A stretch of DNA of 64,000 nucleotides, from contig JAGQUM010000053.1 in NCBI GenBank assembly GCA_020438485.1, forward strand, positions 1 to 64,000, written 5' to 3'. Shown piece by piece: positions 44,217 to 58,468 of this stretch. The position numbers and the translations under genes were made by a program. Position 1 is the first letter of the stretch. Each line of letters opens with the position of its first letter. The notes below the pieces were generated by a model that made no database searches, had not been told where the DNA came from, and was given only the letters and a program-made list of their open reading frames with translations. The DNA is from Thermoleophilia bacterium. GTDB lineage: Bacteria > Actinomycetota > Thermoleophilia > Miltoncostaeales > Miltoncostaeaceae.

Positions 44217-44225
44217 GGTTGGAGG

Positions 44226-44593
44226 TGGACCCGGCCGGCACTGCCCCGGCGTCCGAAAGCGCTTACGTGTCAGTTTCTCCGAGCGCAGTCGAAGGGATTG
44301 GTCTCACACGCGGCGGCCCCTCCGACCCACCGTCCACGTGCCAGGCGCTCCTTCAATCTCGCCCGCCGACCGAGTGCCGTTGCCGACGGACCAGGGCTGC
44401 TGGCTGACACCGGTGATCTCCCCCGCAGCCCGGGGGAAGGCCGATGGCTCTCAGTGACTGCTAGTTAGGCAGCGAGAGCGAGCTTGGGAGAAGACTCCGC
44501 AGCTACGTTGTGTTCCCGGTTGATAACGCGGTCCTCCGGGTCCGCGGCTCGCTTACCGACACGCTCCCGCCCCGTCGAAACTGGATCGGGCCC
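44226..44593 (-). ncRNA. ssrA: tmRNA (transfer-messenger RNA)
   Basis: The 5' end GGGCCCGATCCAGTTTCGAC has the conserved D-loop-like segment. GGGCCCG (44593-44587) pairs with CGGGUCC (44233-44227) as the acceptor stem, followed by discriminator A. The tag frame runs to TAA at 44465 and ends AAESSPKLALAA, with EHNV before it; the resume codon is probably among V-I-N-R just upstream. Stalled ribosomes would thus be rescued and products tagged for proteolysis through the -ALAA end. The 3' part UUUCGGACG matches other tmRNAs, but the T arm is GCCGG-GGCAGUG-CCGGC. Its loop departs from UUCRANY. CCA is not encoded exactly (CCU). Confidence 0.93.
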
Positions 44594-54632: not shown

Positions 54633-55124
54633 ACGGCACCGCGCAACCAGCCCCGCTCGGGGTGCCCCATCAACGCGGCCGTCGAGGTGCTGGGAGACCC
54701 CTGGACCCTCGTCGTGCTTCGCGACGTGGTGTTCGGCGGCCGGCGTCACTTCCGCGAGCTGCTGGCGCAGTCGGAGGAGGGCATCGCGTCGAACGTGCTG
54801 GCGTCGCGGCTGAAGGCCCTGGTCGCTGCGGGGCTGCTGACGCGGGACGACGCGCGGCGGGGCCAGCGGGCGCGGTACAGCCTTACCGAGGCGGGAATTC
54901 AGACTCTGCCGGTGTTGGTGGCGCTGGGCGCGTGGGGGCGGGCGCACCTCGCCACGACGCCGCTTCTGGCGGCGCGCCAGCGGGCCATGGAGGACGGCGG
55001 CCCGGCGTTCGTCGAGGGGCTGATGAACGAGCTTCGGGAGGCCCACCTGGGCGTGCCGCGCCCCGATCCCGGGGCGCCCCGCCCCAGCGACGCGCTGCGC
55101 GCCGCGTATGAGGCGGCTCGGTGA
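54633..55124 (+). CDS. HxlR-family winged-helix regulator (ACG start proposed)
   Basis: The winged helix (VEVLGDPWTLVVLRDVVFGGRRHFRELL, ASNVLASRLKALVAAGLLTR) is typical HxlR. The family-conserved first helix, RSGCPINAAVEVLG with its cysteine, precedes the first standard start, GTG 54687. No ATG/GTG/TTG occurs in frame back to the stop at 54594. GGGAGG at 54621-54626 is exactly 6 bases before ACG 54633, so initiation at ACG is plausible. The cysteine may sense oxidants or electrophiles. The stop overlaps the photolyase start. Confidence 0.88.
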   Translation, partial: TAPRNQPRSGCPINAAVEVLGDPWTLVVLRDVVFGGRRHFRELLAQSEEGIASNVLASRLKALVAAGLLTRDDARRGQRARYSLTEAGIQTLPVLVALGAWGRAHLATTPLLAARQRAMEDGGPAFVEGLMNELREAHLGVPRPDPGAPRPSDALRAAYEAAR

Positions 55125-56569
55125 GCGCCTGCCCCACCGTGGTGTGGTTTCGCCGCGACCTACGCACGGCCGACAACACCGCGCTGGCCCGGGCGTGCGC
55201 AGACGGGCCCGTGGTGTGCGTGTGGGTGCGCGACCCGGCGCTCTTGCGCCGTCGCCACCACCGGGCCCCCGGGCGGCTGGCGTTCCTACGCGACGGCCTG
55301 CGGGCGTTGGACGCCGACCTGCGGGCCCGTGGTTCGCGACTGGTGGTGCGCACGGGCGCGCCGGAGGCCGTGCTGGCCGACGTGTGCCGCACGGCGGGCG
55401 CTCGCCGCGTGGTGCACGCCGCGGAGGTCTCGCCGTGGGGGCGCGCGCGCGACCGGCGCGTGGCGGCGGCGCTCGCCCGCGACGGCGTGCGCGTGGACGA
55501 GGTGGGCGGCGACCTGCTGGTCGACCCCGGTGACCTGCCCGGCTCGTCCGGTGAGGGGTACCGCGTGTTCACGCCCTTCTGGAGGGCATGGCGGACGTTC
55601 CCCCTGCCCAGGCACTCCCCCGCGCCTGAGCGCGTCGACGGACCGCGCCTGGACGGCGAGGACCCCGGGGACGTAGCGGCCGGCGACCCGCCCGCGCCCG
55701 CCGGCGCCTCCGTGGCGCGCGACGCTCTGGTGAGGTTCATACGCGACGGCGGCGCCGACGGATACGCCGACACCCGCGACGATCCCGCCGCCGACGCCAC
55801 GTCGCACCTGGGCGCATACCTGAGGCTGGGGATGTGCACGGCGGCCCAGGTCGGCCGGGCGCTCGGCCTGCCGGGCGTGCTGTCCGCCGGCAGGGAGGAG
55901 TTCTGGCGTCAGATCGCGTGGCGGGAGTTCTTCCACCATCTGATGGCCCGCCGCCCGGGCGTCGCCCGCGCCGCGCTCGACCCCGCCCTGCGCGGCGTGG
56001 CGTGGGACGACGACCCGGACGGCCTGGACGCGTGGCGACGCGGCCTCACGGGTTATCCGCTGGTGGATGCGGGGATGCGGCAGCTCGCGGCCACGGGGTT
56101 CATGCACAACCGCGTGCGGATGGTGGCCGCGTCGTTTCTGGTCAAGGACCTCCACGTCGACTGGCGACGCGGCGAGACCGTGTTCATGCAGGCGCTCGTG
56201 GACGGCGACCCGGCCAGCAACAACGGCGGCTGGCAGTGGGTGGCGGGCACCGGGGCCCACGCGGCGCCGTACTTCCGCGTCCTCAACCCCGTGCGGCAGG
56301 CTCAGCGGTTCGACCCGGGCGGCGCGTACATCCGCCGATGGGTGCCCGAGCTGGCCGGGGTCTCCGGGGCCCGCATCCATGAACCGTGGCGGATGACCCC
56401 CGACGAGCAGGAGGCGGCCGGCTGCGTGATCGGCGTGGACTACCCGGGCCCCGTCACGGACCACTCCGGCGCCCGGGAGCGGGTCCTTCGGCTCTACCGC
56501 GACGCCCGCGCGCGCTCGTCGCGGGCTCCGGGAGGCCACCCGTCTCCGGGGGACGACGCCGCGGTGTGA
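55121..56569 (+). CDS. phr: deoxyribodipyrimidine photolyase
   Basis: The 482-aa flavoprotein of the cryptochrome/photolyase family has an N-terminal antenna domain (VVWFRRDLRTADNTALARA) and a C-terminal FAD domain with SHLGAYLRLGMCTAAQV, EFWRQIAWREFF, GYPLVDAGMRQLAATGFMHN and GGWQWVAGTGAHAAPYF. It repairs cyclobutane pyrimidine dimers with blue light. The GTG overlaps the hxlR stop (GTGA), so it is co-translated with the regulator, which may link light/oxidant stress to repair. Confidence 0.95.
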   Translation: MSACPTVVWFRRDLRTADNTALARACADGPVVCVWVRDPALLRRRHHRAPGRLAFLRDGLRALDADLRARGSRLVVRTGAPEAVLADVCRTAGARRVVHAAEVSPWGRARDRRVAAALARDGVRVDEVGGDLLVDPGDLPGSSGEGYRVFTPFWRAWRTFPLPRHSPAPERVDGPRLDGEDPGDVAAGDPPAPAGASVARDALVRFIRDGGADGYADTRDDPAADATSHLGAYLRLGMCTAAQVGRALGLPGVLSAGREEFWRQIAWREFFHHLMARRPGVARAALDPALRGVAWDDDPDGLDAWRRGLTGYPLVDAGMRQLAATGFMHNRVRMVAASFLVKDLHVDWRRGETVFMQALVDGDPASNNGGWQWVAGTGAHAAPYFRVLNPVRQAQRFDPGGAYIRRWVPELAGVSGARIHEPWRMTPDEQEAAGCVIGVDYPGPVTDHSGARERVLRLYRDARARSSRAPGGHPSPGDDAAV

Positions 56570-56640: not shown

Positions 56641-58353
56641 TCAGTAGATGTCGTGCGCGGTGTTGTACACGTTGAACTTGCCCGTGGGCGTCACGAGCCA
56701 CGGGCCCGTGATGCGCTTGATCTCCTTCAGCGTGCGGTCGTTGTAGATGATCAACTCGCCGCGCCGGGTCCAGTTGGAGACCCATACCTCGGTGCCCTGC
56801 TTGTTGTACTCGAAGTGCACCCCGCGGCCGGCCTTCGTGGCGGTCCAGCACTTGTGCAGCTTGCCCGCCGCCTTGGAGTAGACGCAGATGCGCCGCGACT
56901 CCTTCTCGGATGTCGCCAGCGTCGCGTCGGTCCACACCCAGGGTGACTTGGGGTGCGTCTTCAGGAACAGGGTCCCCGCCGACGGGAGCTTCACCTTGCG
57001 CACGACCTTCCACGCGTACTCGGGGTGGTTGGCGGGGTCGGCCCCGTAGATGGTCAGCTTCCCCTCGCCCATGTGGGTGGTGGCCATCACCCATCCGTAC
57101 TTCGGGTCCTTCCAGTTGGCGCCACGCCCCGGGTGAGGCTTCGTGCCCGTGTCGATGAGCGCGACGCGCTTCTGGTCCTTCACGTCGATGACGGCGATCT
57201 GGTTCTGCATGTTCGCCGCGATCGCCAGGTAGCGGCCCGTGTGGTCGAACCCGCCGTCGTGCAGGAAGCGCTGGGCAGCGATCATCTTGGAGATCGGGAA
57301 GCCTGGCTTGGAGTAATCCACGATCGCCACGTAGCCGGATTCCTTGAGCGCGACCGCCCATACCGGCGCCGCGTGCGACGGCGCGATCACGGCGATGCGA
57401 ACCTCCTTGAGCTTCTGGCCGTCGATGCTCTCGGTGGGGACGGGCACCACCTTCTGGGGCTTCAGCGTGAGCCCGTCGTAGATCACGTACTGCATGGGCC
57501 AGTAGCAGCCCTCGATGATCCACTTGTCCTCGAACCCCTTGAACTTGCTGCCCTCGACGCTGCGCGCGTCGATGCAGCCCTTGACCTCGGCCACGACCTT
57601 GGGGGTCTTGTACCAGAGGTCGATCAGCGTGATCTTGCCGTCGCGGCCGATGGCGTAGAAGTACCGTCCGGTGGCGCTGGAGCGCAGGATGTGCACGGCG
57701 TAGCCGGTGTTCAGCAGCGCCACGCGCTCCTTGGTGTCGGAGTCGAAGATGCCCACCTTGCCCGCGTCGCGCAGGATGACGCCGGTGTAGTTGGTCCAGT
57801 CGCGAGTGGTCTCAGGCTTCGTGGGACGTTCCTTCACGGGGACCTTCAGGTCCCACGTCGTCTCGATCTCCTCCAGCGGAAGCTGGGGCGGTTCCGGGGG
57901 GTCCATCTGCAGGAAGCGGGCCATCATGGCCACCTCGTCCTTGGAGAGGAACCCCGCCTTGCCCCACGGCGGCATGCCGCCGGGCAGACCGTTCTGCACC
58001 ACCGCCTCGATCGCCACCGATCCGCGACGGCGCATCGTGCCGGGGTCCAGTGGCGGGCCGGTCGCGCCCGCACGCAGCGACCCGTGGCACCCGGCGCACT
58101 GCTTGAAGAAGATCTCGGAGGCCCGGTGGAACTGGGCGTCGTCCAGCGCGACACCCTCGGCCAGCGGCGGCGTGGGGAGGGTGGACGTGGGGGTCTCGGC
58201 CCCGCCGCCCCCGGTCGACGCCGCCGTGCCACTCGACGAGTCGTCGTCGCTGCACCCGACGATCCCCGCGGCCAGCGCGGCGGCGGCCGCGACGGCCAGT
58301 ACGTACCTCGGGCGTCCTGCGGCGCGCCCTCTGCCGGATTCCTCTCGCATCAT
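56641..58353 (-). CDS. cytochrome cd1 (NirS-like) lipoprotein
   Basis: A lipobox (AAGIVGC, Cys34) and an Asp/Ser-rich linker lead to a cytochrome c domain with CAGCH (Cys86, Cys89, His90) and a Met in PGGMPPWG. The eight-blade d1-heme propeller follows: LLNTGYAVHILR (proximal His221), APSH (His327), FLHDGG (His365), PHPGRGANW and the terminal LVTPTGKFNVYNT. These match dissimilatory nitrite reductase NirS, which reduces nitrite to NO, including both distal histidines. No nirF/D/L/G/H/J/E genes for heme d1 are in the window. Activity thus depends on genes elsewhere, or the protein is a cd1-like sensor. GGAGG precedes ATG 58353. Confidence 0.88.
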   Translation of the reverse strand: MMREESGRGRAAGRPRYVLAVAAAAALAAGIVGCSDDDSSSGTAASTGGGGAETPTSTLPTPPLAEGVALDDAQFHRASEIFFKQCAGCHGSLRAGATGPPLDPGTMRRRGSVAIEAVVQNGLPGGMPPWGKAGFLSKDEVAMMARFLQMDPPEPPQLPLEEIETTWDLKVPVKERPTKPETTRDWTNYTGVILRDAGKVGIFDSDTKERVALLNTGYAVHILRSSATGRYFYAIGRDGKITLIDLWYKTPKVVAEVKGCIDARSVEGSKFKGFEDKWIIEGCYWPMQYVIYDGLTLKPQKVVPVPTESIDGQKLKEVRIAVIAPSHAAPVWAVALKESGYVAIVDYSKPGFPISKMIAAQRFLHDGGFDHTGRYLAIAANMQNQIAVIDVKDQKRVALIDTGTKPHPGRGANWKDPKYGWVMATTHMGEGKLTIYGADPANHPEYAWKVVRKVKLPSAGTLFLKTHPKSPWVWTDATLATSEKESRRICVYSKAAGKLHKCWTATKAGRGVHFEYNKQGTEVWVSNWTRRGELIIYNDRTLKEIKRITGPWLVTPTGKFNVYNTAHDIY

Positions 58354-58451
58354 GGCGTGCACCTCCGTTTCCTCGCGTCGGGCCGGTGGCGGGTTCACCG
58401 CCACCGGGTTGGGCGCGGTGGGTGACCGGCCACCATTCTCGACGGGATTTG

Positions 58452-58468
58452 TTCGATGATTCACCGAA
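58452..58468. promoter_or_regulatory. 17-bp near-perfect palindrome upstream of the NirS-like gene
   Basis: TTCGnTGAnTCAnCGAA is symmetric at 14 of its 17 positions (the two mismatched bases plus the centre excepted). It lies ~100 bases upstream of the ATG, in an A/T-rich island. It is neither an FNR/NnrR box (TTGAT-N4-ATCAA) nor an obvious NsrR site, so the regulator is unknown. Confidence 0.55.

Follow-up and report, generated by a model that had tools for sequence, protein, structure and literature searches.

nirS is a marker gene used for denitrification. The encoded cytochrome cd1 nitrite reductase of Pseudomonas aeruginosa (PDB IDs: 1nir and 6tsi) is a soluble, periplasmic protein whose gene lies in a nir cluster for heme d1 synthesis. 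NirF, together with NirC, was recently reported to introduce the keto groups of heme d1 and to be essential for d1 synthesis (PMC13168839). A lone form of NirS was published from Chloroflexi as C1-C2-NirS, with the absence of neighboring genes noted (PMC8756737); in the main text of that paper, we found no discussion of a genome-wide absence of d1 genes or of a lipid anchor. A survey of NirS assigned Actinobacteriota to its clade 5 and described clades differing in nirBEFJNT gene content (PMC10999283), and its supplementary tables may already hold part of the gene-absence pattern described below. Because these two studies are published, lone NirS is not new as such; our literature search found no paper on how lone NirS obtains heme d1.

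Here, we analyzed a window (the whole stretch of 64,000 nucleotides) from a Thermoleophilia metagenome-assembled genome (MAG; 91-contig draft, 95% complete) encoding a lone NirS. Its closest NirS relatives and two named MAGs from the same order point to Thermoleophilia. The protein adds to the known NirS family, and the gap in its cofactor supply is the point of interest.

Identity of the window protein

The original prediction of a NirS-like lipoprotein had the open reading frame at exactly the right coordinates, and a good Shine-Dalgarno sequence precedes the gene (Table 1). Pfam searches identified Cytochrom_D1 (PF02239; E 5.6e-101) and Cytochrome_CBB3 (E 1.6e-11) domains. The top matches in the PDB were NirS (1bl9, E 1.9e-147; 1aof, E 4.8e-137), with NirN (E 1.2e-47) and NirF (E 3.1e-6) far weaker. 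The AF2 model (mean pLDDT 80; signal peptide and linker <50) gave 6tsi and 1nir as its best Foldseek matches (E 2.5e-58). Relative to P. aeruginosa NirS, the protein shows 41–43% identity over the fold alignment, the same order of c and d1 domains, and all heme ligands, and differs in being lipid-anchored and encoded alone.

Table 1. Features of the nirS locus in the window
Feature	Position	Strand	Basis
DNA photolyase gene, convergent neighbor of nirS	55121..56569	+	Same neighbor beside the nirS remnant of G012 (L103)
nirS, lipoprotein cytochrome cd1 nitrite reductase, 570 aa + stop	56641..58353	-	Sequence, Pfam, PDB, tree, AF2/Foldseek
Heme d1-binding eight-bladed propeller, residues ~185-570	56644..57801	-	PF02239 full length; AF2 and Foldseek to 1nir/6tsi
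His407, distal catalytic His (= P. aeruginosa H369)	57133..57135	-	PDB matches, alignment
His365, distal catalytic His (= P. aeruginosa H327)	57259..57261	-	PDB matches, alignment
His221, proximal d1 ligand (= P. aeruginosa H182)	57691..57693	-	PDB matches, alignment
Cytochrome c domain, residues ~70-150, CAGCH at 86-90, axial Met127	57904..58146	-	Pfam, alignment
Lipoprotein signal peptide, lipobox I-V-G-C34 (residues 1-34)	58252..58353	-	Sequence
Shine-Dalgarno GGAGGT, 7 nt before ATG of nirS	58361..58366	-	Sequence

Alignment with canonical NirS, NirN, and NirF showed that the protein was identical to NirS at all heme-c and d1 ligands checked. The d1 positions compared were R156, H182, R198, R225, Y245, H327, H369, and R372, which we take to be pocket residues of P. 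aeruginosa NirS. The mutant chains 1hzu (H327A) and 1hzv (H369A) aligned exactly at His365 and His407. The predicted c-heme site, proximal histidine, and both distal histidines were thus confirmed (CAGCH/Met127, His221, and His365/His407). The pocket Arg and Tyr residues are also present, and close relatives in other Thermoleophilia carry identical catalytic-site residues. NirN and NirF share the propeller superfamily with the window protein, but carry Asp and Tyr, respectively, at the H327 position, where the window protein has His, and NirF lacks a c domain. In the maximum-likelihood tree, NirS (100/99), NirN (100/99), and NirF (100/100) formed separate clades. The window protein fell inside NirS (100/99), in one group (100/99) with the NirS of three further Thermoleophilia; this group was sister (100/99) to NirS of a MAG labeled "Myxococcales" (L015). 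The phylogenetic check proposed in the original prediction thereby disposed of a placement with NirN or NirF, and tree and distal-residue states together ruled out either identity. By sequence, AF2 fold, and tree, the protein, with its c-type heme domain and eight-bladed d1 propeller, is a genuine member of the cytochrome cd1 nitrite reductase family.

The Chloroflexota C1-C2-NirS (PMC8756737; 52–54% identity) is likewise lone, bears a lipobox, and occurs without NirF and NirJ, but has an extra N-terminal cytochrome c domain, also found in NirS of Bipolaricaulota and L015. The window protein is not a C1-C2-NirS: it contains a single CxxCH, and residues 34-69 form a Ser/Gly/Thr-rich linker of ~35 residues. 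NirS of L015 shares 65% identity and a lipobox with the window NirS; unlike the latter, it carries the extra domain and has nirJ, nirF, and ahbAB downstream.

Predicted membrane location and genomic neighborhood

The lipobox of the window NirS bears out the predicted lipoprotein. Actinobacteria are monoderm, and the anchor would therefore lie at the external side of the cytoplasmic membrane; a proposed true nitrite reductase at the outer membrane face accordingly stands as to NirS identity and falls as to site. The proposed alternative, an NO or nitrite sensor, gained no positive support: Pfam detected no signalling domain, no signalling partner was present among the annotated flanking genes, and the full catalytic pocket is retained. 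Lipoboxes were found in NirS of L014, L101, L015, and Chloroflexota and were visible in nearly all lone NirS examined, with SJ49 (L016) as an exception, so that, judged from sequence, most of the lone carriers examined have a lipobox-bearing NirS. The lipid anchor most likely substitutes for periplasmic retention in a monoderm.

The window covers most of a 70.8-kb contig that also carries genes named from their sequences as SecA-, PrfB-, and FtsEX-like, and nirS is therefore chromosomal rather than on a stray contig. Besides the photolyase gene, nirS adjoins a gene for an RNB-domain ribonuclease. No other denitrification or d1 gene occurs among the 20 annotated window genes, and of the 50 ORFs picked in it, nirS alone encodes a CxxCH protein. 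The earlier statement that no d1 or donor gene lies nearby thus holds for the neighborhood, with the qualification that the upstream d1 enzymes CobA and AhbAB are encoded elsewhere in the genome. Upstream of nirS, region 58384-58468 contains a perfect 9-bp stem, CGGTGGCGG-TGAAC-CCGCCACCG, ending ~30 nt before the ATG. An AT-rich patch ~100 nt before the ATG holds a 17-bp near-palindrome, TTCGGTGA-A-TCATCGAA. A scan for promoters and terminators found none. A tmRNA gene (Rfam RF00023, 87.7 bits) lies at 44223-44593 (- strand).

NirS was found in 5/42 genomes of the order, one of them with a truncated remnant. A same-genus genome (G011) yielded no NirS, and in G012, from another genus, only the C-terminal ~265 residues of nirS are left (L103 9325-10116), beside the same photolyase gene. 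Because the remnant shares this neighbor and G011 lacks NirS, the locus looks old in the family, with loss or truncation in places.

Heme d1 supply in lone-NirS genomes

Genome-wide searches of the window genome detected CobA-HemD, an AhbA-AhbB fusion (siroheme decarboxylase) in a hemB-ahbAB-hemL cluster (C75), and two radical-SAM enzymes, one AhbC-like (C66) and one TIGR04053/AhbD-like (C62); HemE and ferrochelatase were not found. Across the order, AhbAB was present in 39/42 genomes, and ferrochelatase occurred only in two of the three without AhbAB. Heme b is therefore evidently made through siroheme in this order, which accounts for the upstream half of the d1 route; as core metabolism, this shared half is not evidence of a d1 pathway. 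CobA-HemD, AhbAB, and the two radical-SAM proteins, both resembling heme-b enzymes, fit the order's Ahb heme-b pathway. AhbC- and AhbD-like radical-SAM proteins occurred in only ~13/42 genomes of the order, despite near-universal AhbAB. Most genomes of genus g12, several of them 95–98% complete, gave only weak matches, and the one inspected was HpnH.

The d1-specific biosynthesis genes that usually accompany NirS, although not a strictly defining trait, were not found in the genome. Profile scores and a tree of radical-SAM proteins revealed no true NirJ. C66 was rejected as the missing NirJ: the AhbC model scored it above the NirJ model (345 vs 286 bits), true NirJs showing the reverse, and it fell outside the NirJ clade (99/97), paired with its counterpart from the NirS-less sister genome G011. 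Within the order, the presence of NirS was not significantly linked to that of the AhbC-like gene (3/5 vs 10/37, p=0.16). A PF02239 search of the whole genome, which scores NirF at E 1e-60 to 1e-139 where present, returned NirS only, without a second propeller for NirF or NirN. As NirF is reportedly essential and has a reported role in keto-group formation (PMC13168839), the missing NirF is a real gap. A genome-wide check for d1 genes, as the original prediction had suggested, thus recovered the upstream enzymes and none of NirJ, NirF, and NirN.

The search was extended to 11 further NirS-bearing genomes: eight Chloroflexota, for which the records give no completeness figure, one Bipolaricaulota, and two clustered controls. 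The eight Chloroflexota genomes contained no significant PF02239 protein besides NirS and no NirJ, and the Bipolaricaulota genome only weak extra PF02239 matches and no NirJ. Together with four Thermoleophilia genomes with intact NirS (one 67% complete), NirJ and NirF were undetected in 13/13 lone-NirS genomes, whereas both controls (a Myxococcales MAG and a SAR324 MAG) encoded NirS, NirJ, and NirF (2/2); because the lone-NirS lineages are related, the Fisher test (p 0.01) is only indicative. On these searches, the missing second half of the d1 route is common to other single-membrane bacteria with NirS.

Possible routes to a functional enzyme

We favor, with moderate confidence, a catalytically competent, surface-tethered NirS whose heme d1 is finished by unrecognized enzymes or imported. 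NirS would be exported and its c heme attached outside the cell, and the lipid and flexible linker would hold it at the outer surface of the cytoplasmic membrane; there it may reduce nitrite to NO, drawing electrons from membrane cytochromes. CobA and AhbAB would make and decarboxylate siroheme, already serving heme b, and the last steps, carried out elsewhere by NirJ and NirF/NirC, could fall to unrecognized enzymes acting after didecarboxysiroheme or be replaced by import. We prefer this reading because sequence, tree, and fold lie within NirS with checked ligand positions identical to the canonical enzyme, because the locus is on a contig with SecA/PrfB/FtsEX-like genes and is common to G012, because AhbAB and CobA-HemD are present, and because nirS-only Thermus strains reduce nitrite and a Thermus plasmid nirS cluster lacks NirJ and NirF. 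Counting against the competent enzyme are the lack of a second PF02239 propeller, the heme-b-like character of the radical-SAM proteins, the reported essentiality of NirF (PMC13168839), and the majority of the order without NirS. A broader proposal, that the lone NirS of monoderms obtains d1 without NirJ and NirF, through enzymes for didecarboxysiroheme still to be found or by NirS finishing its own cofactor, is tentative. Self-finishing would treat NirS as a NirC-like c domain joined to a NirF-like propeller; an inspection of lone NirS for NirF-like residues hinting at self-maturation found none convincing.

A functional NirS might instead take d1 or a late precursor from canonical denitrifiers nearby, which we regard as unlikely. 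The fully conserved d1 pocket in the absence of detectable NirJ and NirF in the 13 genomes, and a predicted cell-surface position that an external cofactor could reach, agree with such cross-feeding; the enzyme would then depend on neighbors, and we know of no d1 uptake system. Reduction of nitrite in culture by nirS-only Thermus strains (PMC9270275) also speaks against it. Decidedly doubtful is the occupation of the propeller by another tetrapyrrole, such as didecarboxysiroheme or heme b, in a redox protein or NO/nitrite sensor: a complete d1 route is not visible, NirJ and NirF were not found, and the distribution is patchy, but all d1 ligands checked and both catalytic histidines are kept, and neither a signalling domain nor a sensor partner among the annotated flanking genes was seen.

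The remnant in G012 and the lack of NirS in G011, together with the retention of nirS-nirJ-nirF-ahbAB in the nearest relative outside the class, could also mark nirS as a relic, disappearing in the wake of the d1 genes. We consider this quite improbable, given that four copies are intact and keep their catalytic residues, and that synonymous change among them exceeds nonsynonymous change (dS being understated at this GC3). Least credible is that NirJ and NirF lie in unassembled parts of the MAG, as a 91-contig, 95%-complete draft might allow; NirF is also missing in G010 (96%) and G013 (98%), a joint chance of ~4e-5 if it were present and losses were independent, and is absent from the eight Chloroflexota genomes, one of them that of the isolate Longilinea arvoryzae, although the same model detects it strongly where present.

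If these lineages hold intact NirS without the known cofactor route, either an undiscovered d1 pathway or cell-to-cell transfer of d1 would be implied; alternatively, nirS counts overstate denitrification. L. arvoryzae and the nirS-only Thermus strains make the cofactor question testable. Thermus strains with nirS as the only nir gene found reduce nitrite in culture (PMC9270275), and at the level of the plasmid cluster Thermus may serve as a partial precedent for NirS without NirJ and NirF. NirS of Thermus plasmid pTF24b shares 53% identity with the window NirS, and NirF and NirJ are absent from its cluster, as in the window; it differs in an N-terminus without an obvious lipobox and in adjoining genes for a TIGR04053 radical-SAM protein and a cytochrome c552. 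On this plasmid (L040 10078-15167), genes for a multicopper oxidase, NirS, the TIGR04053 radical-SAM protein, and cytochrome c552 lie consecutively, and the TIGR04053 protein is a candidate NirJ stand-in in Thermus.
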